Shown here in pieces: positions 1 to 21,502 of a stretch of DNA of 21,784 nt (position 1 is its first letter; each line of letters starts with the position of its first letter). A program made the position numbers and the translations under genes. The notes beneath the pieces were generated by a model, which saw nothing but the letters and a program-made list of their open reading frames with translations, ran no database searches and was not told the DNA's origin. The stretch comes from Elusimicrobiota bacterium. Lineage in GTDB: Bacteria; CG03; SLGR01; PWQF01. The stretch lies in the NCBI GenBank assembly GCA_003557485.1, contig PWOI01000055.1, positions 1 to 21,784 on the forward strand. The letters run 5' to 3'.

Positions 1-149
1 ATATTTCGATCTTTATTTACTACTCGAAGTGAAGTTACTTCCATGCGGTTGTTCAAACCAAGTATGAAGATTAAAAATAAAATACTACAAACCCCTATAA
101 TTGAGCCTATAATTGCTCCTACAATTGAACTTTTAAAATCCATTTTCAT
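1..149 (-). CDS. Partial membrane protein of unknown function (N-terminus only)
   Basis: A reading frame opens with ATG at 149 and runs off the left edge (49 codons seen). A strong Shine-Dalgarno, GGAGG, lies 8 nt before the ATG, which decides the start; a second Met is two codons later. The visible protein has a short polar start (MKMDFKSS) and then one hydrophobic Gly/Ile-rich helix (about residues 9-33) followed by a charged stretch with Arg, Glu and Lys, so it is a membrane-anchored or signal-anchored protein. I do not recognise the family. It lies downstream of a minus-strand terminator at 241-267, so it probably has its own promoter between 150 and 240, which I could not pick out. Confidence 0.6.
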   Translation of the reverse strand, partial: MKMDFKSSIVGAIIGSIIGVCSILFLIFILGLNNRMEVTSLRVVNKDRN

Positions 150-240
150 AATTAATTCCTCCCCACTGCTCAGCATCCGGAAATTCTTCATCACTTTTAT
201 ATCTTAATATCAATGACATTCTTTAAAAATAGAATCAAAT

Positions 241-267
241 AAAAAAACACTGGCTCCGGAACCAGTG
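241..267 (-). terminator. Rho-independent terminator
   Basis: Read on the minus strand, a perfect 6-bp stem CACTGG/CCAGTG with an 8-nt loop (248-267) is followed at once by seven T residues (241-247) and more T/A. The plus strand has no T run after the hairpin, so it works for minus-strand transcripts only. It would end a transcript from the tRNA promoter at 540-568 or from the candidate promoter at 318-346. Confidence 0.8.
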
Positions 268-311
268 CTTCTGATAATTCTTTATATTTGATTAAAGTAA
301 ATAATCATTAT
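241..311 (-). ncRNA. Candidate small RNA, about 70 nt
   Basis: A minus-strand promoter-like sequence, TTGACA (341-346), 17 nt, TAAATT (318-323), predicts a start near 311, and the strong terminator at 241-267 ends the transcript about 70 nt later. The RNA would have an AU-rich 5' part and a stable 3' terminator hairpin. The only frame in it is about eight codons, starting ATGATTATT. The -10 box matches only 4 of 6 consensus bases, so the promoter could be chance and the hairpin may simply end read-through from the tRNA promoter. Confidence 0.25.
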
Positions 312-317
312 GTAGTT

Positions 318-346
318 AATTTAGGAAATTAGCAGGGCTATGTCAA
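318..346 (-). promoter_or_regulatory. Candidate sigma70-type promoter
   Basis: TTGACA at 341-346 is a perfect -35 box; a 17-nt spacer leads to TAAATT at 318-323, a weak -10 (4 of 6). It points into the short AT-rich stretch that ends at the terminator. Confidence 0.3.
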
Positions 347-377
347 CTGTAAGCAACCAATAATAGTTTTGCCCATA

Positions 378-454
378 TTTTGCCCATGTTGGGCATATAT
401 CAATCAAGTTCAATCAAGCTAAATCAAGTATGTTTTAGACGATGTGAGTATGTG
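378..454. repeat. Direct repeat DR1, possible recombination-site remnant
   Basis: This stretch aligns in the same orientation with 2724-2790. The best block, AATCAAGTATGTTTT then GACGATGTG (422-446), matches 2758-2781 with a single inserted base. The similarity continues outwards through GCCCATG..GGG.ATAT.TCAAT on one side and more weakly through GTGC..GAG..GGGG on the other. DR1 also contains a perfect hairpin, TGCCCA-TGT-TGGGCA (381-395), and three helically phased repeats at 401-430. It abuts the broken tRNA at 453-514. The arrangement resembles attachment or element-end sequence, but no integrase is in the window. Confidence 0.6.
401..430. repeat. Three tandem 10-bp repeats, consensus MAATCAAGNN
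   Basis: CAATCAAGTT, CAATCAAGCT and AAATCAAGTA follow each other with no gap, so the shared AATCAAG recurs every 10 bp, close to one helical turn. This would put the same bases on one face of the DNA, as expected for a protein-binding array. The second direct repeat (2724-2790) keeps only one copy. Confidence 0.6.
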
Positions 455-514
455 CTCGAGGAGGGTGGAATCTTATCCGTAGTCAGCCGCTCTGTCCAGT
501 TGAGCTACGGGCGC
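453..514 (-). pseudogene. Broken tRNA-Arg(ACG): 5' half only
   Basis: Read on the minus strand from 514 the sequence begins GCGCCCGTAGCTCA, a normal tRNA acceptor 5' strand, U8-A9 and D-stem, then a D-loop with GG, then an anticodon loop CTACGGA (ACG, Arg). The anticodon stem is imperfect, with G-A mismatches. From about 474 onward the tRNA cannot be completed: there is no TTCGA T-loop and no 3' CGGGCGC to pair with the acceptor. Instead the sequence continues CCCTCCTCGAGCA, which itself looks like the 3' end of a different tRNA (T-stem, acceptor, discriminator A), and then enters repeat DR1. The likely explanation is a scar of integration or excision at a tRNA gene. The promoter at 540-568 is intact, so a defective transcript may still be made. 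Confidence 0.65.
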
Positions 515-539
515 CCTTGGAATGAATTATTCCGGTGTT

Positions 540-568
540 ATTATAGTTAAAAGTTCAGACAAGGTCAA
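540..568 (-). promoter_or_regulatory. Strong sigma70-type promoter of the tRNA-Arg remnant
   Basis: TTGACC (563-568), a 17-nt spacer and a perfect TATAAT (540-545) on the minus strand. The start would be near 533, giving a leader of about 18 nt before the tRNA 5' end at 514, normal for a tRNA gene. Confidence 0.7.
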
Positions 569-636
569 AAACAGTCAACACCAAACCGGGGTTTAGATAA
601 TTTAACCTAATTTTGAAAAGAATATTTTTCCATCAC

Positions 637-665
637 TTTACAAACTTTATACTGTAATATATTAT
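637..665 (+). promoter_or_regulatory. Candidate promoter of the LysE-type gene
   Basis: TTTACA (637-642), a 17-nt spacer and TATTAT (660-665), each 5 of 6 to consensus. The -10 ends 6 nt before the ATG at 672, so transcription would start at or next to the start codon. No Shine-Dalgarno is present, which fits a leaderless message. Confidence 0.4.
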
Positions 666-671
666 GAATTT

Positions 672-1310
672 ATGGAACTGTTTTTAATTTTTTCCGGTGC
701 TTTTATAGTAGCTCTTTCCGGGGCTCTTATGCCTGGCCCTCTCTTAACAGTCACTGTGGCCCATTCCCTCCGGCGGGGTTTTTCTGCCGGGCCTCTGGTT
801 GTACTCGGTCATATGTTTTTAGAATTAACCTTGATTCTGCTTATCCTGCTGGGACTTAAAAATTTTTTGACTCTACCGCATATAGTGATAACTATATTTC
901 TGGCAGGGGGACTTATTCTCATTTATATGGGTATTGCCATGTTAGGCTCATCTAAAAAACTTACCCTGGAAACCCGGACCAGTGACCTTTCTTTCATGAC
1001 GCATAATCCTGTTATGAGCGGTATTGCTGTCAGTCTGGCTAACCCGTACTGGATTATATGGTGGATTACCATCGGGTTGGGTTATTTAATCAAAGCTATG
1101 GAATACAATTACCTGGGCATCAGCTTGTTTTTCAGCGGCCATATTCTGGCAGATTTGGGATGGTATTCTTTTATTGCCTATACTTTCAGTAAAACTAAAA
1201 AGATTATAACTGACAATATTTACCGGAAGATAATTTATGCCTGCGGGATATTTTTAATTCTTTTCGGTTTATGGTTTATCTACGGAGGTATAGAAAAAAT
1301 TATCCCTTAA
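672..1310 (+). CDS. LysE/RhtB-family exporter
   Basis: This is a 212-residue membrane protein, the usual length for the LysE/RhtB family, which exports amino acids and related small solutes across the cytoplasmic membrane. Six hydrophobic segments can be seen (about residues 4-26, 38-61, 68-90, 112-135, 142-168 and 186-207). The family hallmark near the first helix (ALMPGPLLT, 18-26) and the ANPYWIIWW motif (about 122-130) are both present. The substrate cannot be told from sequence. The ATG at 672 has no ribosome-binding site; a promoter just upstream suggests a leaderless mRNA. It is convergent with the next gene and lies between direct repeats DR1 and DR2, so it may be cargo of a small decayed island. 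The only other genes nearby on its side are the tRNA remnant and the ATPase. Confidence 0.85.
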   Translation: MELFLIFSGAFIVALSGALMPGPLLTVTVAHSLRRGFSAGPLVVLGHMFLELTLILLILLGLKNFLTLPHIVITIFLAGGLILIYMGIAMLGSSKKLTLETRTSDLSFMTHNPVMSGIAVSLANPYWIIWWITIGLGYLIKAMEYNYLGISLFFSGHILADLGWYSFIAYTFSKTKKIITDNIYRKIIYACGIFLILFGLWFIYGGIEKIIP

Positions 1311-1389
1311 TGAACCCTGCCATTTTAATTTTTTACGGAGCTTACCTTTATTTTTAATCGGTAATTATAGTAAAGCTACCGGAATAAAA

Positions 1390-2577
1390 CTATATCAATT
1401 GCGATAAAAAAGTTCTGGCAGGAACAGCTACCGGATAATTAATTGAAAAACAGTCTTTAGCTGCAAACTCTTTATTAAATACTACCTGAAAAGCATGTTT
1501 TGCCTTTGTTTTATCCTGAAAATATGATAGATTTTGATTTAATTCTTTATCTTTTGTCTTGACTTCTACCAGGAACCACGGCTTTTTATTTTTAGTTACC
1601 AGGAAATCTACTTCTCTTTTTTCATAAGTTCTTAAATAAAAAAGATCATAATCCCCAAAACCGTTATCACTCCACCAATGTACAGATTTTAACAGATGTG
1701 ATGCAACAAGATTTTCATTTCTTTCTCCCTCGGTAACAACTGATGACCAATCCCAAAGATATACTTTGGGTTCTTTAGTAAGTGATTTTGATATATTTTT
1801 TGACCAGGGTTTTATTCGAAAACAATAATATAAAGACTCTAACGCAGAAATCCAGTTTCTTACAGAATTTTCAGAAGCTCTGATTTTTTTTGCAAATGAT
1901 GCATAATTGCATTGCTGTGTCGCATTCAATTGAATTAACTCCGCTAATATTTCTACCTGGCCTACTTCATTTATTCTTGTTAAATCTCTCAATTCCTCTT
2001 TAAAAAGCAACTGTTTTCTTAAACTCTTCCACTTGTTAAAAAATTTCATATCTTTTTTTAAAAATGGTTCCGGAAACCCCCCGTACTTTAAAAGAGCCTG
2101 ATAGTCTTTATTCGGAATATTTTTAGGTTTTCTTATTTCATCTTCCGAATATTTTTTATATGCAATTTCACCAATTGTTACCGGATGCATTCTATAAAGA
2201 AAATACCGCCCCATTAAACTGTCAGCGCTTTTCCTGTATATATTGCAATTGGCGCTGCCCGTAATTATTACTTGAAATCTGTCTTTTGCATAAACATCGT
2301 AAAACCCCTTGATGAAATTTTTCCATTCGGGATATTTGTGCAATTCATCAAAAACAACAACTGAATTCTCTGTAAGACCTATTTCCTGAGCCAGCGCATC
2401 CTGACCTTTAAGTATTAAATGACGTGTTTTTTCGTTATCCCAGTTAAAATAACTATGCTTCGTTCTATATGCTCTGCATGTCGTGGTCTTGCCAACCTGT
2501 CTTGGACCTAAAATAAATACGATTTGTTTATCTTCCCGGAAATGATTCTCTATTAAACTTTCATATATTCTTTTCAT
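1390..2577 (-). CDS. AAA ATPase with DUF4143-type C-terminal domain
   Basis: This is a 395-residue protein (numbered from ATG 2577). The N-terminal half is an AAA_14-type P-loop ATPase: Walker A GPRQVGKTT (24-32), Walker B VVVFDE (73-78) and a sensor-like ITGSA. The C-terminal half is of the DUF4143 type and ends in a nuclease-like pattern, REVDFLV with D324, then EVK with E338 and K340, reminiscent of the PD-(D/E)xK fold. The cellular role of this common solitary family is not established; links to mobile DNA or toxin-antitoxin-like functions are only suggested. A longer frame from TTG at 2613 exists, but that TTG is part of a near-perfect -35 box (TTGACA, 17 nt, TAGAAT), so I prefer ATG 2577, which also matches the usual start just before the P-loop. 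Convergent with the exporter gene. Confidence 0.85.
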   Translation of the reverse strand: MKRIYESLIENHFREDKQIVFILGPRQVGKTTTCRAYRTKHSYFNWDNEKTRHLILKGQDALAQEIGLTENSVVVFDELHKYPEWKNFIKGFYDVYAKDRFQVIITGSANCNIYRKSADSLMGRYFLYRMHPVTIGEIAYKKYSEDEIRKPKNIPNKDYQALLKYGGFPEPFLKKDMKFFNKWKSLRKQLLFKEELRDLTRINEVGQVEILAELIQLNATQQCNYASFAKKIRASENSVRNWISALESLYYCFRIKPWSKNISKSLTKEPKVYLWDWSSVVTEGERNENLVASHLLKSVHWWSDNGFGDYDLFYLRTYEKREVDFLVTKNKKPWFLVEVKTKDKELNQNLSYFQDKTKAKHAFQVVFNKEFAAKDCFSINYPVAVPARTFLSQLI

Positions 2578-2584
2578 ATAATTA

Positions 2585-2613
2585 ATTCTAATCGTTAAAA
2601 CCTTATCTGTCAA
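2585..2613 (-). promoter_or_regulatory. Promoter of the AAA/DUF4143 gene
   Basis: A perfect TTGACA (2608-2613), 17-nt spacer and TAGAAT (2585-2590) on the minus strand. Only 7 nt separate the -10 from ATG 2577, so the start site should fall on or next to the A of the start codon: a leaderless mRNA. There is no Shine-Dalgarno. Confidence 0.65.
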
Positions 2614-2657
2614 GAGAATTCCGCAATGAATTGCGTATTTCTACGGAGAATTCCGCA
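2614..2657 (-). promoter_or_regulatory. Paired 12-bp repeats abutting the -35 box, candidate operator
   Basis: The minus-strand word TGCGGAATTCTC occurs twice as a direct repeat, at 2614-2625 and 2646-2657, start to start 32 bp (about three helical turns). The proximal copy touches the -35 hexamer. A perfect inverted repeat, CGCAAT-GA-ATTGCG (2622-2635), overlaps the proximal copy. This is the layout of an activator or repressor site for the ATPase gene. Confidence 0.45.
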
Positions 2658-2723
2658 TTCCTCTGCATATTACTCCATTCAGGGGAGAGGCCCCCTACAA
2701 TGTCAATTTAATTAATAAGAAAA

Positions 2724-2790
2724 TTTGGCCCATGCCGGGTATATGTCAATAAAGCAGAATCAAGTATGTTTTGACGATGTGTTTAAGTGC
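2724..2790. repeat. Direct repeat DR2, partner of DR1
   Basis: Same-orientation, diverged copy of 378-454. The core AATCAAGTATGTTTTGACG and following ATGTG lie at 2758-2781. It lies just beyond the 3' end of the LicD gene and before the ATPase promoter, so DR1 and DR2 bracket the exporter and ATPase genes (about 2.3 kb apart). Confidence 0.6.
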
Positions 2791-2811
2791 AGAGTAGGGG
2801 CTGAAGATATT

Positions 2812-3408
2812 TCAGGCTCTATTAATTTCAAAGAGTTTCTTCTTGTCGAAATCCCGGTCGGGAATTTCCCAATCCCTGCCGTACCTGTTTTTTAAATAAC
2901 CTTTATAGTCCTCAGGCAAAGAGTAGCTATCATTAAGAACTTTTTTCTCAATTGTATTTTGACAAAATTTTTCGGGTATTTTTACAATAAAATAATCCCT
3001 TTTTTGCCTTATACCGTAGCAGTAAAAATCTTCAAGTTTTTTTACCGCAAATATCTCTATTTTTGTTATTCCTTTCTTTAATAACGTATCTACTTTTATT
3101 TTCCTTATATCACCTTTTATGAAGCATTCCGCATCTCTGTCATATTTAACGAGTTTGTATTTTAGCTGAGTCTTTTCAAAATCAGATACAATTTTATCTA
3201 ATTCTTCTTTTTCAGAGCAACAGATAACAAGGTCCACATCCTTATCACACGGCAAAAGCCTGTTCTCTCTTACTGCGCCCAGAAGCGTTCCTGCCTCCAG
3301 CCAGTATGTTATATTGTTTTTTTTAAGAATTTCTTTAACAGTTTTTAAAATATTCAGAACTTTTTTTGTCCGGGCTTTTATTTGACGCTCTTTTAATATT
3401 TTAAACAC
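2812..3408 (-). CDS. LicD-family phosphotransferase-like protein
   Basis: A 198-residue protein with the LicD/fukutin signature: YWLEAGTLLGAVR (35-47) then an acidic triad, D55, D57 and D59 in PCDKDVDL, where family members usually have PWDDDIDI. The C-terminal part (about 163-186) keeps the typical pattern of Pro, Tyr, YL, YG, DW and P. LicD proteins belong to the nucleotidyltransferase fold and transfer phosphocholine or similar phospho-groups to surface glycans in the cytoplasm; the acceptor here is unknown. The start is GTG, 5 nt after the double-receiver gene; an in-frame stop lies just upstream and there is no clear ribosome-binding site, so translation may be coupled. It is the last gene of the long minus-strand run. 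I see no good intrinsic terminator after it. Confidence 0.75.
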   Translation of the reverse strand: MFKILKERQIKARTKKVLNILKTVKEILKKNNITYWLEAGTLLGAVRENRLLPCDKDVDLVICCSEKEELDKIVSDFEKTQLKYKLVKYDRDAECFIKGDIRKIKVDTLLKKGITKIEIFAVKKLEDFYCYGIRQKRDYFIVKIPEKFCQNTIEKKVLNDSYSLPEDYKGYLKNRYGRDWEIPDRDFDKKKLFEINRA

Positions 3409-3413
3409 GGGGA

Positions 3414-4205
3414 TTATGTCATTTCTGATATTTTTGCAAGAAGTTCTTTGTTGTTGAATGGTTTTAGAAAAAAAAAGGACGGGCCATCGGGTTTAAGTGT
3501 TTCATAAAGGTCCTTATCTTTAACCAGCCCTGAGTTGAATATTACGGGAGCCGTTACTCCTTCTTCTCTCAATTTTTTGATGCTTTTCCATCCGCTTAAT
3601 TCCGGCATAATTACATCCGAAATTATCAGGTCATGTTCCCCGGAAATGCCTTTTTCAACAAGTTCCCGGCCAGTACGGGCGATCTCTACTTCATAATTTC
3701 CTGCAAGAATAAGCTGAAGCAGTTTTATTACATCAGGATCGTCGTCCGCTACAAGTATTTTTTTCTTCAGGTTCTTATTTTTCTGTGCAGCCTTCGCCTT
3801 ACGGGGGTACGATTCTTTTTCCTGCAGCTGAAACATTCTATCTCCCAGTACAGCACTCACTGTATCTATAAGCTGCTTGCTTGAAAATGGATAGACAAGA
3901 AAATCATCTACGCCGGGATGTTCTCCCGCAAGATCGAAACCCTCAGGTATCATCATTATAACCGGGATGTTTTTTAATTTTATTTCTTTATTTATCCGAT
4001 CGGCAAGTTCGTATCCGGTAGTTTTATCCATTATATAGTTCATTATGATAAGGCAGGGGGTGGTGCTTAGGGATTTTTCTATGCATTCAGGACCCGTTGA
4101 AACCTCCAGAATCTCAACCCGGTAGCCCCGAAGAGACATTCTCACAAGAAAACGGGTATCTTTATCGCTTCCTGCTACGAGAAGTTTTTCTGCCGGAGAG
4201 GCCAT
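3414..4205 (-). CDS. Response regulator with two receiver domains, the first degenerate
   Basis: A 263-residue protein (from ATG 4205) made of two receiver domains and no output domain. REC1 (about 5-122) is a pseudo-receiver: the phospho-acceptor Asp is Asn56 (IIMN), the acidic pocket is reduced to S13-D14, and the conserved Lys is Tyr105 (LVYPF). REC2 (about 148-260) is canonical: D154/D155, acceptor D197 in LIISDVIMPELSG, S225 and K248-P. A charged Lys-rich linker (134-148) joins them. It probably takes phosphate on REC2 only, and the likeliest donor is the kinase two genes upstream, a guess from proximity. The ATG overlaps the stop of the LysM-FecR gene (TGATG); a GTG one codon earlier is possible. 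Confidence 0.85.
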   Translation of the reverse strand: MASPAEKLLVAGSDKDTRFLVRMSLRGYRVEILEVSTGPECIEKSLSTTPCLIIMNYIMDKTTGYELADRINKEIKLKNIPVIMMIPEGFDLAGEHPGVDDFLVYPFSSKQLIDTVSAVLGDRMFQLQEKESYPRKAKAAQKNKNLKKKILVADDDPDVIKLLQLILAGNYEVEIARTGRELVEKGISGEHDLIISDVIMPELSGWKSIKKLREEGVTAPVIFNSGLVKDKDLYETLKPDGPSFFFLKPFNNKELLAKISEMT

Positions 4206-5623
4206 CACATTATTGCAAGTGCTATAGCGATAATGCTCAGAGCCGAGGAAACTATTCCAAGAGTAACAAATACATTTCTCGGTTTTGTTTCTTCTTTTTT
4301 GTCTTCTATAAGTATGCTGTTTACGGTGATCTTTTTTTCGGAAACCCTGTTCAGGCTGTCAGTTGCCTTTATGTTTATTTCATTCTCCCCATATCTGAGA
4401 TTAAGCCCCGCTACAAAACTGCCGTCATCGTCGGCACGGACCGGATTGCCGTTTATATGTATCCTGGAGCGGGGAACGGCACGGCCGCGTATTGTTACTA
4501 TCCTGCTGGTTAACTCGGCTTTATCTTCAGGCGAAAAAATAATTATTTCGGGAGGCGCCGTGCTTACAGTGAATTGAACGGGCCGGGAAAAACGGCTTGT
4601 CATGCCATAGCTGTCTATAAAAGCAGCACGCCAGAAATAGTCTCCGTCAGGAAGATTATGAGCAAACTCATCCGGAGAAGCGCGGTCTACCTCCTCTTCT
4701 ACAAGGAGTTGGGAAAAATCCTCATCAGCTGAAATATGCATAATTACTTTTTCTATTTCTCCACGGCGCACTCTTTCGGCAGGCATATTAATTCTCTCAG
4801 AAAAAAAAGTAAAGTCTATGTCGGAAGAAGCAAGAAATTCTGCCGGAGCATCATCACTGTCTATACCTCTTCCCTCAAACTCCGGAGCATCGGGCAGTTC
4901 TATAGGCCTTATTGGAGGGGCATCAAACTCTGCCCTGGACATGTATCCCTCCCGAACAGTAACCCTCTCTCCAGCTGATATAAAATCAACAGAACCCCGG
5001 AATACGCTGAGAGTAGTGGTTTTCTGTTCGTCAACTTTTGCTGTGTATTCCGAGACGCGCATAGGTTCGATAACTGCAGAATCGGTTAAAACCTTTACAT
5101 CACGCGCCCTCAGCTGGCCGATATTAAGAGAAACCACATCTTCCCGGGCCGGCTCGGGCGTAAGAAAAACAAGGGAGTTTTCACCTATTCTCGCATAACT
5201 TTCGCTGGCAAGATACTGTATACTCGCAGAAGAATTAGCCGATGTTCTTATTCCATCCTCCGGATAAAGGCGCTCTCCAAGCGCTGCCGGACTCCAGGCA
5301 GCCTGTCCGCTTTTACGCATTCTTACCTGGTTGCGGAGTTCTATAAAATCTGCTATTTCACCCCTGACCATCTCAACAGGAACAAAAATTTTGTCCCCGG
5401 GATAAATCAAATTAGGGTCTCCTGTAGGTATTTCGTTGTACTGAAGAAGTTCCGGCCATCTGTGAGGCTCATCAAGGTATCGCTGAGCAAATCTTGAAAG
5501 GGTATCACCCGGAGATACTTCAATTTCGATAAGCTGAACCTCGGCCTGCTGGGCAGGCAAACCCGACGGCAGGCTTATAAAAACAATAAAAACAAAAGAT
5601 ATTATAATACTTATGCACTTCAT
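4205..5623 (-). CDS. LysM-FecR envelope protein, C-terminally anchored
   Basis: A 472-residue exported protein. A signal peptide (1-24, ending LPA before QQ) is followed by a LysM domain (about 31-83, with SPGDTLSRFAQRYL and YPGDKIFVP) that should bind peptidoglycan, and a FecR-type beta domain (about 95-235). Next comes a segment with WRAAFIDSYG resembling Ig/Fn3-like repeats, and then a second beta domain of the type found in surface proteins (about 355-440: IFSPEDKAELTS, GRAVPRSRIHINGN, GENEINIKATD). It ends in a transmembrane helix (about 450-472) with almost no cytoplasmic tail. LysM-FecR proteins are common in environmental Gram-negative-type bacteria, but their role is unclear. It lies 34 nt after the histidine kinase gene and overlaps the receiver gene, so it may be a periplasmic partner of the kinase. 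Its own promoter-like sequence lies just upstream. Confidence 0.8.
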   Translation of the reverse strand: MKCISIIISFVFIVFISLPSGLPAQQAEVQLIEIEVSPGDTLSRFAQRYLDEPHRWPELLQYNEIPTGDPNLIYPGDKIFVPVEMVRGEIADFIELRNQVRMRKSGQAAWSPAALGERLYPEDGIRTSANSSASIQYLASESYARIGENSLVFLTPEPAREDVVSLNIGQLRARDVKVLTDSAVIEPMRVSEYTAKVDEQKTTTLSVFRGSVDFISAGERVTVREGYMSRAEFDAPPIRPIELPDAPEFEGRGIDSDDAPAEFLASSDIDFTFFSERINMPAERVRRGEIEKVIMHISADEDFSQLLVEEEVDRASPDEFAHNLPDGDYFWRAAFIDSYGMTSRFSRPVQFTVSTAPPEIIIFSPEDKAELTSRIVTIRGRAVPRSRIHINGNPVRADDDGSFVAGLNLRYGENEINIKATDSLNRVSEKKITVNSILIEDKKEETKPRNVFVTLGIVSSALSIIAIALAIM

Positions 5624-12273: not shown

Positions 12274-13641
12274 TTATTTCATATATTTATCGATCTGTTC
12301 GTCTTTTACTCTTTTAAGCTCTTCGCGCGGAAGCATTTTTAAAAGTTCCCACCCAAGGTCAAGGCTTTCTTCTATTGTCCTGGACTCGTATTCACCCTGG
12401 GCTACATAGCTGTTTTCATATTCATCAGCGAACTTGCTGAATTTTTTGTCTTCGTCCGAAAGCGCTTCTTCACCCAGTATAACTGCCAGTTCCTTTGCCT
12501 GTTTTCCCCTGGCGTAGGCAGCAAAAAGCTGAGAGGTAACCGCGCTGTGATCATCCCGGGTTTTTCCCTCCCCTATACCTTTTTCCTTCAGCCTGGAAAG
12601 AGACGGCAGGACATCTATCGGAGGATAGACGCCGCCGTGTTCCAGTTCCCTGGAAAGGATAATCTGACCTTCAGTTATATATCCTGTAAGATCCGGTATA
12701 GGATGCGTTTTGTCATCGTTGGGCATTGTAAGAACGGGGATCTGGGTAATGGACCCTTTTTTGTCTTTTATGCGGCCGGCTCTTTCATAAATGGAGGCAA
12801 GGTCCGTATACATATAACCCGGATAACCCCTTCTGCCGGGAATTTCCTTCCGTGCGGCCGAAACTTCCCTGAGAGCTTCCGCATAGTTAGTCATATTTGT
12901 CATTATGACAAGCACGTGATAATCTTTTTCAAAAGCAAGAAACTCTGCTGCGGTAAGAGCCATCTTAGGAGTCGCGAGGCGTTCTATTGCAGGGTCGTCA
13001 GCCAGGTTCAGAAACATTACAGATCTTTCTATGGCACCGGTTTTTTCAAAATCTTTCCTGAAAAAATCGGCTTCCTCAAAGGTAATGCCCATTGCTGCGA
13101 AAACAACGCAGAAGTCTTCCTTTTTTCCCCTGACCGCCGCCTGTCTTGCTATCTGTGCGGTTATCTGGTTGTGGGGAAGGCCGGATCCCGAAAAAACAGG
13201 CAGCTTCTGGCCCCTGACCAGTGTATTCATAGCGTCTATTGCGGAAATTCCGGTCTGAATAAATTCATCAGGATAACTTCTTGCATACGGATTGATGGCA
13301 AGTCCGCTTACATCTTTTCTGTCTTCAGCTATGACTTCACCGCCGCCGTCTATGGGGTTTCCCAGGCCGTCAAAAACCCTTCCAAGCATTTCAGACGAAA
13401 CGGCAAGTTCAAGCCCTTTTCCAAGAAATTTGACTGCAGAGTTGTCCAGGTTAGCGCCGGCCGTGCCGGCAAAAAGCTGCAGCAAAACTACATCGTCGCT
13501 TACTTCAAGTACCTGTCCCAGCCGGTCTTCACCCGACGGAAGCCTGACCCTCGCTATTTCTCCGTAAGCCACATCCTGAACTTTTTCTACATAAAAAAGA
13601 GGGCCGGCTATACTTCTTACTGTTTTATATTCTTTTTTCAT
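12274..13641 (-). CDS. atpB: V/A-type ATPase subunit B (non-catalytic)
   Basis: A 455-residue B subunit of usual length. The P-loop position reads [10 protein letters not shown] (149-158) instead of GxxxxGKT, the hallmark of the non-catalytic subunit, and the expected B-type segments GLGNPIDGG (92-100), [32 protein letters not shown] and [14 protein letters not shown] follow. It alternates with A in the hexameric head and shapes the nucleotide site at the interface. The ATG shares one base with the A stop (TAATG), so translation is probably coupled. The symbol follows V/A-type naming. Confidence 0.95.
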
Positions 13642-15638
13642 TATTGACTATCCTTTTTTCTTTCGGCCTGCTTTTTGTCTGCACTCTTTTTTCCCAACTG
13701 TTCTATTATTTTCTGCGCTGTTTTTTCACCTATTCCATCTATTTCGGCAAGAGTTTCAACTCCGGCTTTTTTAATTTTTTCCGGACTGTCATACCCTTTT
13801 TCAATAAGCAGCCGTTCGGTTTTCTCACCTATTCCTTCTATTGCCGGCAGCTTTTCGTCCTCAGCGTCAGTTATATCATCTTCGGAGGAAGAAGATGCAA
13901 AAAGCTTTTCTATTTCCTTATCCAGCTTGTCAAAATCCTCTGTTTTTTCATCCTCATAAAATTTCATCCTGGCAATCTTTTCTTTTACTTTTCCCGGTTT
14001 AAGGTCTGCCAGGGTATTGCCCGCCTCAATATATTCCAGCGCCCTGGAATGATATTTCATAATCGCGGATATCATCCGGTACTGATTCTTTATATGTGTG
14101 AATGTTTCATCGGGATCAAAAGCATGCTGCTGCAAAAAGTCCTCGCGGATCATCTTTGCGGTATCAAGAACCTGCCTGTCCTTATCGGAAAGGGATTCTT
14201 CACCGACCAGCCTAACTATTTCCTCCAGTGATTCCTCTTTCTGGAGTATTCCCATCGCCTGTTTTCTTAAATCGGAAAAACCTTCTCCCACTTCCTTTTC
14301 ATAGTAATCCCTGAGAGCGTCCCCGTAAAGAGAATAGGAGCGCAGCCAGTGTATTGCGGGAAAATGGCGCTGGGATGAAAGGTCATCATCAAGACCCCAG
14401 AAAACTTTTACTACCCTCAAAGTATTCTTTACCATCGGGTCGGAAAGGTCGCCGCCGGGAGGTGAAACCGCCCCTATTATGGAAAGAGACCCTTCCCTGT
14501 CGGCACCCAGGCATTTAACCCGGCCTCCCCTCTCATAAAATTCTGCCACCCTGGAGGCGAGATAGGCCGGATATCCCTCTTCCCCGGGCATCTCTTCCAG
14601 GCGGCCGGACATCTCCCTGAGAGCCTCCGCCCAGCGGGAAGTTGAATCAGCCATAAGGGCTACCTTGTATCCCATATCGCGGAGATATTCGGCTATTGTC
14701 GTACCGGTATAGATAGAGGCTTCGCGGGCTGCAACCGGCATATTTGAAGTATTTGCGATAAGAACTGTTCTTTTTATTAGGGGTTCTCCTGAGTACGGAT
14801 CTTCAAGCTCGGGAAACTCCTGCAGAACATCTGTCATTTCGTTTCCGCGCTCGCCGCACCCTATATAAACAACAATTTCCGCATCGGTCCATTTTGCAAG
14901 CTGCTGCTGAACTATAGTTTTCCCACTTCCGAAGGGGCCCGGTATACATGCAACGCCTCCCTTGGCTATCGGAAAGAAGGTGTCTATCACTCTCTGCCCG
15001 GATATTAGAGGCTCTTCCGGAGGAACTTTTTCAAGGTATGGCCTTTTTTTTCTGACCGGCCACTCCTGCAGCATCTGTATTTTATGAGTTTTCCCGGAGC
15101 TGTCCTTTATTTCCGCCACATCGTCAATAACTGTAAATTTACCCGACTCTATTACGGTTATTTCACCTTCAAGTCCCGGAGGGACCATTACCCTGTGCTG
15201 GACAGTCGGCGTCTCCTCAACTGTACCTATCACAGTTCCGGCAGAAACTTTATCTCCTTTTTTCACCGAAGCCTTAAAGTCCCATTTCTTCTTTCTGTCC
15301 AGTCCCTGGGCTTTTGCACCGCGGGCTATAAAATCTCCGGTTTCGTTGCGGACTACGTCAAGTGGCCGCTGAATACCGTCAAAAATGCTCCCGATAAGCC
15401 CGGGACCGAGCTGGACCGAAAGCGAAGAACCCGTGGTTACTACTTCTTCCCCGGGTTTTATTCCTCCTGTCTCCTCATAGACCTGTATGGAGGCTTTCTC
15501 TCCGTGAAGTTCTACGATTTCTCCTATAAGGCTGTCTTTTCCAACCCGGACAACCTCGTTCATCTTTACGCCTTTCAGGCCCACCGCGCCTACAAGAGGC
15601 CCTGATATCTTTATAATTTTCCCTTTTGTTTCACTCAT
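13641..15638 (-). CDS. atpA: V/A-type ATPase catalytic subunit A with extra C-terminal HhH domain
   Basis: A 665-residue catalytic subunit. The P-loop GPFGSGKT (234-241), catalytic Glu in CGERGNEM (E263), the A-type bulge domain (about 115-195) and [12 protein letters not shown] (331-342) mark it as the ATP-hydrolysing or ATP-making subunit. Normal A subunits end near 580-590. Here an acidic Ser/Glu/Asp linker (581-597) leads to two helix-hairpin-helix units, [12 protein letters not shown] (600-611) and [13 protein letters not shown] (633-645), and a Lys-rich tail (650-665). Such HHH_5-like modules usually bind DNA or RNA, or mediate protein contacts. The reading frame is continuous, so this is a fusion and not an overlap. 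The start overlaps the F stop by 4 nt (ATGA). Confidence 0.95.
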
Positions 15639-20198: not shown

Positions 20199-20227
20199 AT
20201 GTTATAACATATTGACTATAAAGTCAA
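20199..20227 (-). promoter_or_regulatory. Promoter of the ATPase operon, covered by two palindromes
   Basis: On the minus strand TTGACT (20222-20227) and TATAAC (20201-20206) are 15 nt apart, a little short for sigma70; TAACAT at 17 nt is a weaker alternative. The -35 lies inside a perfect inverted repeat, TTGACT-ATAA-AGTCAA (20212-20227), and the -10 lies inside a perfect 12-bp palindrome, ATGTTATAACAT (20199-20210). A third short palindrome, TTTAC-C-GTAAA, is at 20241-20251. A regulator binding either large palindrome would block or remodel the promoter. The leader to ATG 20185 is about 9 nt. Confidence 0.5.
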
Positions 20228-20744: not shown

Positions 20745-20799
20745 AGTATAAGGTATGCGTTTAACAGATAGGCAACTTTACTGTAACATTGGTGTAACA
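20745..20799 (-). promoter_or_regulatory. Four 11-bp-phased elements plus -10 box, PhoB/OmpR-type operator-promoter
   Basis: On the plus strand the elements are TTTAACA (20760-20766), GGCAACT (20771-20777), TGTAACA (20782-20788) and TGTAACA (20793-20799): starts exactly 11 bp apart, sharing AAC at positions 4-6. On the minus strand the last element ends 9 nt before a -10 box TATACT (20745-20750), with no good -35. In PhoB-type promoters the 11-bp direct repeats take the place of the -35 and end about 10 nt before the -10. The start would be near 20738, with a leader of about 80 nt to the receiver gene. The neighbouring gene encodes a winged-helix protein of just this class. Confidence 0.6.
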
Positions 20800-20827: not shown

Positions 20828-21502
20828 TTATCCGGTGAATTTATAACCAAAACCGGGTACTGTTTTAATATATGCCCCGCAGGTCCCCAGTTTTTTTCTG
20901 AGCCTGGCTATTGACATATCCACCGATCTTGTAGAGCCGTAATAATCATAGCCCCATACCCGGCTAAGAAGAAACTCTCTTGATAGAACCCGTTCTTTTT
21001 TGTTCATAAATACCCATAAAAGTTCAAACTCATGGGGAGTAAGTTCCAGTTCTTTTTCGCCTGCCCAGACTACCCGGGCAGGATGGTCAATAACAAGTTC
21101 TTTAAATCTGACCGATGAAATTTCTTCAATTTCGTTTATAAGTTTTGAAAGTTTCCCGCTTGCATTTATTAAATCTTTTTTTCCTTCAGGCGGAAAGTTC
21201 AGCCTCTCTATAGCGGAAACTATTGTTTTAGCCTCTGCAGCTATTTCGTTTACAACCAAATCGGATATATTTTTATATTTATTTTCTTCCTGTACCGCAC
21301 TTCTCTCAAGCTCTTTTATACCCTCGGCTATTCTTTCAAGGTTTACAAGGGCTATTACAAGAAACAGGAAAAGGCTTATGATAATAATAGTCGCAGACAA
21401 CATCGATGTAGCTCCCTGGAAAAGCATAATATTTATCACGGGTACGGCAAAAAGTAGCAGAAAAAAAACCTTAAGTTCATTTTTTAAATTTAATTTAATC
21501 AT
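20828..21502 (-). CDS. Membrane-anchored OmpR/PhoB-type winged-helix regulator without receiver
   Basis: A 224-residue protein. Two membrane helices (about 11-29 and 34-54) with a very short loop place the rest in the cytoplasm. Residues about 60-135 form charged helices that resemble a histidine-kinase dimerisation domain (NISDLVVNEIAAEAKTIVSAIERL, then INASGKLSKLINEIEEISS), but the phospho-acceptor His is absent. Residues about 137-222 are a good OmpR/PhoB-type winged helix (ELTPHEFELLWVF, VLSREFLLSRVWG, recognition helix TRSVDMSIARLRKKL, wing KTVPGFGYKF). There is no receiver domain. This is a one-component, membrane-tethered transcription factor with the opposite topology to ToxR. A weak site, GGGAG, lies 9 nt before ATG 21502. 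The signal it senses is unknown. Confidence 0.8.
   Translation of the reverse strand: MIKLNLKNELKVFFLLLFAVPVINIMLFQGATSMLSATIIIISLFLFLVIALVNLERIAEGIKELERSAVQEENKYKNISDLVVNEIAAEAKTIVSAIERLNFPPEGKKDLINASGKLSKLINEIEEISSVRFKELVIDHPARVVWAGEKELELTPHEFELLWVFMNKKERVLSREFLLSRVWGYDYYGSTRSVDMSIARLRKKLGTCGAYIKTVPGFGYKFTG

Follow-up and report, generated by a model that had tools for sequence, protein, structure and literature searches.

In nearly all regulators of the OmpR/PhoB class, the winged helix is under the control of a receiver domain in the same polypeptide or, in ToxR-like proteins, of a C-terminal periplasmic sensor. The 21,784-nucleotide stretch of DNA analysed here (the window), which is the whole contig C134 of a 2.07-Mb MAG that is 86.6% complete, encodes a winged helix of this class attached to a pair of membrane helices, with a free receiver encoded by the next gene. 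This raises the question of how such a regulator receives its signal, and what the neighbouring receiver has to do with it. A preliminary description of the locus had read the pair as a two-component system whose parts were swapped, in which a dead histidine-kinase scaffold was fused to the DNA-binding output and the receiver was left free.

A membrane-anchored regulator with a PhoB-type winged helix

The features of the locus are collected in Table 1. In the regulator gene, an in-frame TAA was found two codons 5' of the ATG, and the stretch GGGAG resembled a ribosome-binding site. By hydropathy analysis, two transmembrane (TM) segments were located within residues 8–62, with no later TM segment, in 3/3 orthologs, which confirmed the two N-terminal membrane helices that had been described. 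The C-terminal part (residues 131–223) could be aligned end to end with PhoB, and its closest solved relative was the DNA-binding domain of E. coli PhoB (1gxp, E = 1.9e-17). Searches against Pfam found neither a receiver domain nor a HATPase_c catalytic domain in the 224-aa protein, so the earlier view that an OmpR/PhoB winged helix is present and the usual receiver is replaced was upheld. The AlphaFold model of the full-length regulator was weak (pLDDT 57), and its linker hairpin had the same topology as in the model of the linker alone. When the full-length model was used for a fold search, the winged helix was the sole part recognised.

Table 1. Coordinates of the regulator, its domains, the neighbouring genes and the candidate control elements in the window
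Feature	Position	Strand	Basis
Membrane-anchored winged-helix regulator, complete ORF, 224 aa	20828..21502	(-)	ORF call; orthologs L003/L032 (83%), L004 (53%)
TM hairpin, residues 12–54, loop of ~7 residues (FQGATSM)	21341..21469	(-)	Hydropathy and ortholog comparison
Helical linker, residues 77–130, predicted antiparallel two-helix hairpin	21113..21274	(-)	AlphaFold and alignments
PhoB-class winged helix, residues 150–222	20837..21055	(-)	PF00486 Trans_reg_C, E 1e-26
3' end of the gene upstream (in L032 a TPR/HEAT membrane protein of 402 aa), remainder past contig end	21559..21640, upper limit approximate	(-)	
Single-domain response regulator (receiver), 123 aa	20288..20659	(-)	PF00072, 8.8e-22; next gene, conserved neighbour
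Candidate operator upstream of receiver gene, four direct repeats, 11-bp period (TGTTACA-N4 x4)	20756..20799	(-)	Conserved in three genomes
Candidate -10 box TATACT (TATAAT in L003), 5 bp past last 11-bp unit	20745..20750	(-)	

Full-length orthologs of the regulator were found in a congener (L003/L032, of which L032 is labelled Elusimicrobia) and in a member of a second family within the order (L004). The comparisons therefore rest on n = 3 regulators, all from draft MAGs of 82–88% completeness. Within the genus the regulator was under purifying selection (dN of 0.09 versus dS of 0.63 overall). This selection and the three full-length orthologs ruled out a truncated gene, a frameshift or a misassembly.

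The constraint was distributed unevenly along the protein. Compared with the distant ortholog L004, the TM hairpin and the winged helix were each 70% identical, whereas identity was 55% directly behind the hairpin, 21% in the linker and 47% in the stretch before the winged helix. Within the genus, the dN values of the TM part, the winged helix and the linker were 0.029 (with dS of 0.50), 0.030 and 0.171, corresponding to dN/dS of ~0.06, ~0.04 and ~0.22, respectively. Because the TM hairpin and the winged helix are equally conserved, the membrane part is functional. Constraint on the membrane hairpin thus equals that on the DNA-binding domain, and the linker evolves in the manner of a spacer.

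With a profile built on the first 134 residues, three true members were retrieved from 386 genomes, and the regulator was present in 3 of the 16 genomes examined of the phylum. A fourth match of this profile (E = 9e-4) was rejected, as it was a Cache/HD-GYP-like membrane protein aligned over a TM plus helix only. No match was found in viral contigs. When 121 distinct winged-helix ORFs from ~90 genomes were classified, 115 carried a receiver and three were of the TM type, namely the three orthologs. Of the other three, one had no receiver that could be recognised, one was truncated by the end of its contig and one was partial. The ratio of 3/121 agrees with the rarity that had been supposed for this layout, although the ORFs sampled were the best-scoring loci of a search among relatives and the layout may occur elsewhere. 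No described family with a TM-TM-helical-winged helix layout was found in the part of the literature covered. The regulator is real, conserved and rare, and it combines familiar parts in a new and unusual way.

Comparison with known systems placed the regulator between several classes. It shares with the ToxR-like regulators (ToxR, CadC, TcpP, PsaE) a PhoB-type winged helix held on the inner membrane and the absence of a phospho-acceptor domain from the same protein. However, ToxR-like regulators have an N-terminal winged helix, one TM and a C-terminal periplasmic sensor (PMC5936718), whereas the present protein has two N-terminal TMs, hardly any periplasmic part and a C-terminal winged helix. 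With the OmpR/PhoB response regulators, such as E. coli PhoB and M. tuberculosis PhoP, it has in common the winged helix and a candidate operator in which 7-bp direct repeats are set 4 bp apart, but the TM hairpin and the helical linker take the place of the receiver. An intramembrane-sensing module consists of two TM helices and an extracytoplasmic loop under about 25 residues, and the TM pair of the regulator, with its loop of ~7 residues, has this form. The regulator may be likened to the intramembrane-sensing kinases BceS, LiaS and SaeS in its two-TM input, its very short extracytoplasmic loop and the cytoplasmic helices that would follow; it differs from them in having no DHp signal and no ATPase domain, and its output is DNA binding. 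So short a loop leaves no space for a sensor on the periplasmic side, which suggests that the input is intramembrane or comes via a membrane partner.

The helical linker and the neighbouring receiver

The preliminary description had seen in the helical segment a DHp domain without its His. The segment was indeed predicted to be helical, and no conserved His was found in residues 77–130 of the three orthologs, but the likeness to DHp domains did not hold. Pfam HisKA gave no match to the regulator even at E ≤ 10, and a PDB profile search revealed no signal of HisKA ancestry in the linker. By hhalign, the linker was compared with 26 DHp domains of the same genomes, with column shuffles, the reversed sequence, helical slices and leave-one-out tests as controls. 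The score obtained was 14.2. Of 300 column shuffles, 21 reached this value, and the reversed sequence scored higher (17.4), whereas left-out true DHp domains scored 83–121. The alignment was colinear with the DHp domains and placed AAEAKT opposite SHELRT, but it was not significant. HisKA/DHp ancestry of the linker was therefore rejected for want of signal in Pfam, the PDB profile search and hhalign.

Modelled alone by AlphaFold, the linker formed a two-helix hairpin with a pLDDT of 78. Its fold matches (VIA-align) included the DHp domains of CpxA (Z 8.6) and ERS1 (Z 8.2), which were tied with EsxA/B (8.7), gp41 (8.4) and designed bundles. A comparison of residues 55–135 with HisKA folds, which had been suggested as a check, thus returned the predicted hairpin with DHp structures among the matches, but did not set these apart from unrelated hairpins, and it spoke neither for nor against the plain coiled coil that had been named as the refuting outcome. 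The dead histidine-kinase scaffold is not supported beyond its general shape, and the case warns against taking two helices that follow paired TM segments as a sign of a dead kinase.

The lone receiver next door was found as described, and proved to be a conserved partner. Its gene follows that of the regulator in 3/3 genomes, with one small gene between the two in L004. The latter gene (629–961 of L004, minus strand) encodes a 110-aa membrane-type protein with no Pfam match, and its start overlaps the stop codon of the regulator ortholog. The three receivers were mutual best matches, the other two being 63% and 48% identical to the window's, and the next best-scoring receivers of these genomes showed 33–35% identity to it. 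Because E12/D13, D57 and K105 are all present, the window's receiver is probably phosphorylatable.

The receiver was closest to FixJ (NCBIfam), Spo0F (PDB) and the receivers of hybrid kinases, nearer than to PhoB receivers, and it shared only 29% identity with the PhoB-type receiver that its own genome encodes. Spo0F and TrrA were among its nearest solved relatives. This affinity makes the regulator and the receiver unlike the halves of one OmpR-type protein, so an exchange of parts within a single OmpR-type system, as had been proposed, is unlikely. A single OmpR-type response regulator split into two genes was ruled out by the reversed gene order and by the FixJ/Spo0F/hybrid-kinase-like character of the receiver.

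A candidate operator before the receiver gene

An array of direct repeats was found upstream of the receiver gene in 3/3 genomes. In the window, the block at 20799–20745 (minus strand, toward the receiver) reads TGTTACACCAA TGTTACAGTAA AGTTGCCTATC TGTTAAACGCA TACCT TATACT, and the corresponding block of L003 reads TGTTACAAAAG CGTTACAGTAA TGTTTCCTTTC TGTTAAACCCA TACAT TATAAT. In L004 two units, TGTTACAGACC GGTTACTTTTG, were found together with conserved TTAAAC and TATA. Agreement with the motif was 24/28 in the window, 24/28 in L003 and 12/14 in the two units of L004. Of 2000 dinucleotide shuffles each, 0 reached this agreement for L003 and 11 for L004, and these two tests are independent; 0/2000 was also obtained for the window, but this result is not independent, since the window is where the motif was initially recognised. 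Among periods of 8–15, a period of 11 was the best in 3/3 genomes. Between the window and L003, 8–9/10 bases agreed through the block versus 1–4/10 downstream of it, and the positions conserved between families included both repeats, TTAAAC and the -10 box.

In the window's genome, a search allowing one mismatch gave two further motif hits, both inside ORFs, versus six for a control pattern. A profile of the site recovered the three source loci and one weak match inside an ORF. As far as these searches of the sequence go, there is no other convincing copy of the operator in the three genomes.

All known sites of the OmpR/PhoB family are direct repeats, and M. tuberculosis PhoP requires 7-bp repeats with a 4-bp spacer, four in a row being bound better than two (PMC4832192). 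The TGTTACA-N4 repeats have the geometry of OmpR/PhoB-family operators and constitute a candidate operator placed over the -35 region, in which the last unit would lie where a class II activator sits.

Proposed mechanism and its alternatives

The reading that we favour, and to which we give somewhat better than an even chance, is that the protein is a membrane-anchored one-component activator with an inverted ToxR topology, and that it acts mainly on the receiver gene beside it. In the N-in topology proposed, the TM hairpin would be followed by the cytoplasmic helical linker and the C-terminal PhoB-type winged helix. The input would arise inside the membrane or be passed on by a membrane partner. 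The linker, as a helical hairpin, may dimerise the regulator and relay a change to the winged helices, which would bind the four computed 11-bp TGTTACA repeats head-to-tail over the -35 region. The bound regulator would then recruit RNA polymerase as PhoB does, acting by activation rather than repression. The receiver would chiefly be the regulated product, and its phosphorylation would fall to one of the cell's many kinases. In this scheme the regulator probably switches on the neighbouring receiver gene, and a feedback contact of the receiver onto the regulator is no more than possible. A conserved family that takes its input through a hairpin in the membrane, and whose likely target is a free receiver, would represent a third wiring of a very common output domain, for which the candidate operator comes ready-made for testing.

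The receiver would have a different part if the linker were a degenerate DHp domain. The free receiver, phosphorylated by another kinase, would dock on the linker and alter DNA binding, in the way that DivK~P acts on the pseudo-kinase DivL. This is unlikely in our estimation. It would agree with the conservation of the receiver as neighbour in 3/3 genomes, with the predicted two-helix hairpin and the DHp structures among its fold matches, with the colinear, though not significant, hhalign alignment, and with the proximity of the receiver to Spo0F and TrrA, both of which dock on DHp helices. There are also precedents, as DivL uses repurposed kinase domains to sense DivK~P (PMC4211667) and the single-domain receiver Osp binds the transmitter domain of CckA in a feedback loop (PMC9430884). 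The logic possibly shared with these systems is that a lone receiver serves as a modulator, and that the receiver gene may be under the control of its partner, like osp under CtrA; but unlike DivL and CckA, the regulator has no detectable DHp or CA domain. Moreover, the lack of a HisKA profile signal and of a conserved His, and an hhalign score within those of the shuffles, speak against docking on a DHp-derived linker. The linker is also the part that varies most (it keeps 21% identity to L004, against 48% for the receiver), unlike a docking surface, and many unrelated hairpins match its fold equally well. Equally doubtful is a closed loop of exchanged parts, in which the kinase-phosphorylated receiver docks on the hairpin and gates the regulator at the membrane, and the regulator activates the receiver gene, so that intramembrane and kinase inputs would be joined.

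Another point to be weighed is the ownership of the repeats. They could belong to another OmpR-family regulator, either L002, an additional PhoB-type regulator of ordinary build that the window's genome encodes, or the product of a gene missing from the MAGs, and the membrane protein would then act on other promoters and be no more than a neighbour of the receiver gene. G000 and G003 do each encode a second winged-helix protein that bears a receiver. In G001, however, the operator is present and the membrane regulator is the sole winged-helix gene found in the 82% of the genome recovered; the membrane protein is favoured as the binder on this account, although G001 may seem to lack other winged-helix genes because its MAG is incomplete. 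In addition, the site profile found no site in G002 and G005, which have ordinary PhoB-type genes but not the membrane protein, and the site adjoins the regulator gene in 3/3 genomes. We therefore regard a different owner as quite unlikely. Least probable is an ordinary membrane one-component regulator that reads its signal by touching another membrane protein, for example the upstream TPR/HEAT protein, and has no mechanistic link to the receiver. The strong conservation of the TM hairpin would fit such a contact, as would the position of the upstream membrane-protein gene, whose stop lies 56 bp before the regulator ATG in the window and 56–60 bp before it within the genus. In L004, by contrast, a different gene lies upstream of the regulator ortholog, whereas the receiver and the operator are kept.

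Further observations in the window and in related loci

A direct action of the candidate operator on the V-ATPase operon was considered unlikely, since this operon has a promoter-like sequence of its own (TTGACT-17-TAACAT), one being present also in L032, where TTGACT-17-TAATAT occurs at the same place before the operon. A perfect inverted repeat, TTGACT-TTAT-AGTCAA (20212–20227), overlaps the -35 element of the promoter-like site in the window and is a possible operator.

The catalytic A subunit of the V-ATPase (13641–15638, minus strand) ends in a helix-hairpin-helix (residues 597–649; HHH_5, 1.3e-14), and a tail of DNA-binding type is odd on a V-ATPase subunit. G006 matched the subunit over its full length including the tail, and most other relatives' matches stopped at residues 567–595. 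In G010:C77, G011:C36 and G013:C15, the match was broken near residues 236–245, in the P-loop region, within open frames of 1113–1124 aa, which is intein-like. The same may apply to G001:C12, in which the match went no further than residue 245 and the frame was 423 aa long. No such break occurs in the window's copy.

In L032, the region 1–4940 upstream of the regulator encodes a protein whose sorting tail resembles those of type IX secretion (Por_Secre_tail, 5e-5), a further lone receiver, a TPR protein of outer-membrane-like character and the TPR/HEAT membrane protein. A further receiver protein of the window (3414–4208, minus strand) contains two receivers, and in the first both the Asp that accepts the phosphate (IIMNYIM) and the conserved Lys (FLVYPF) have been lost. 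The second looks intact, and the protein is a pseudo-receiver fused to a receiver.
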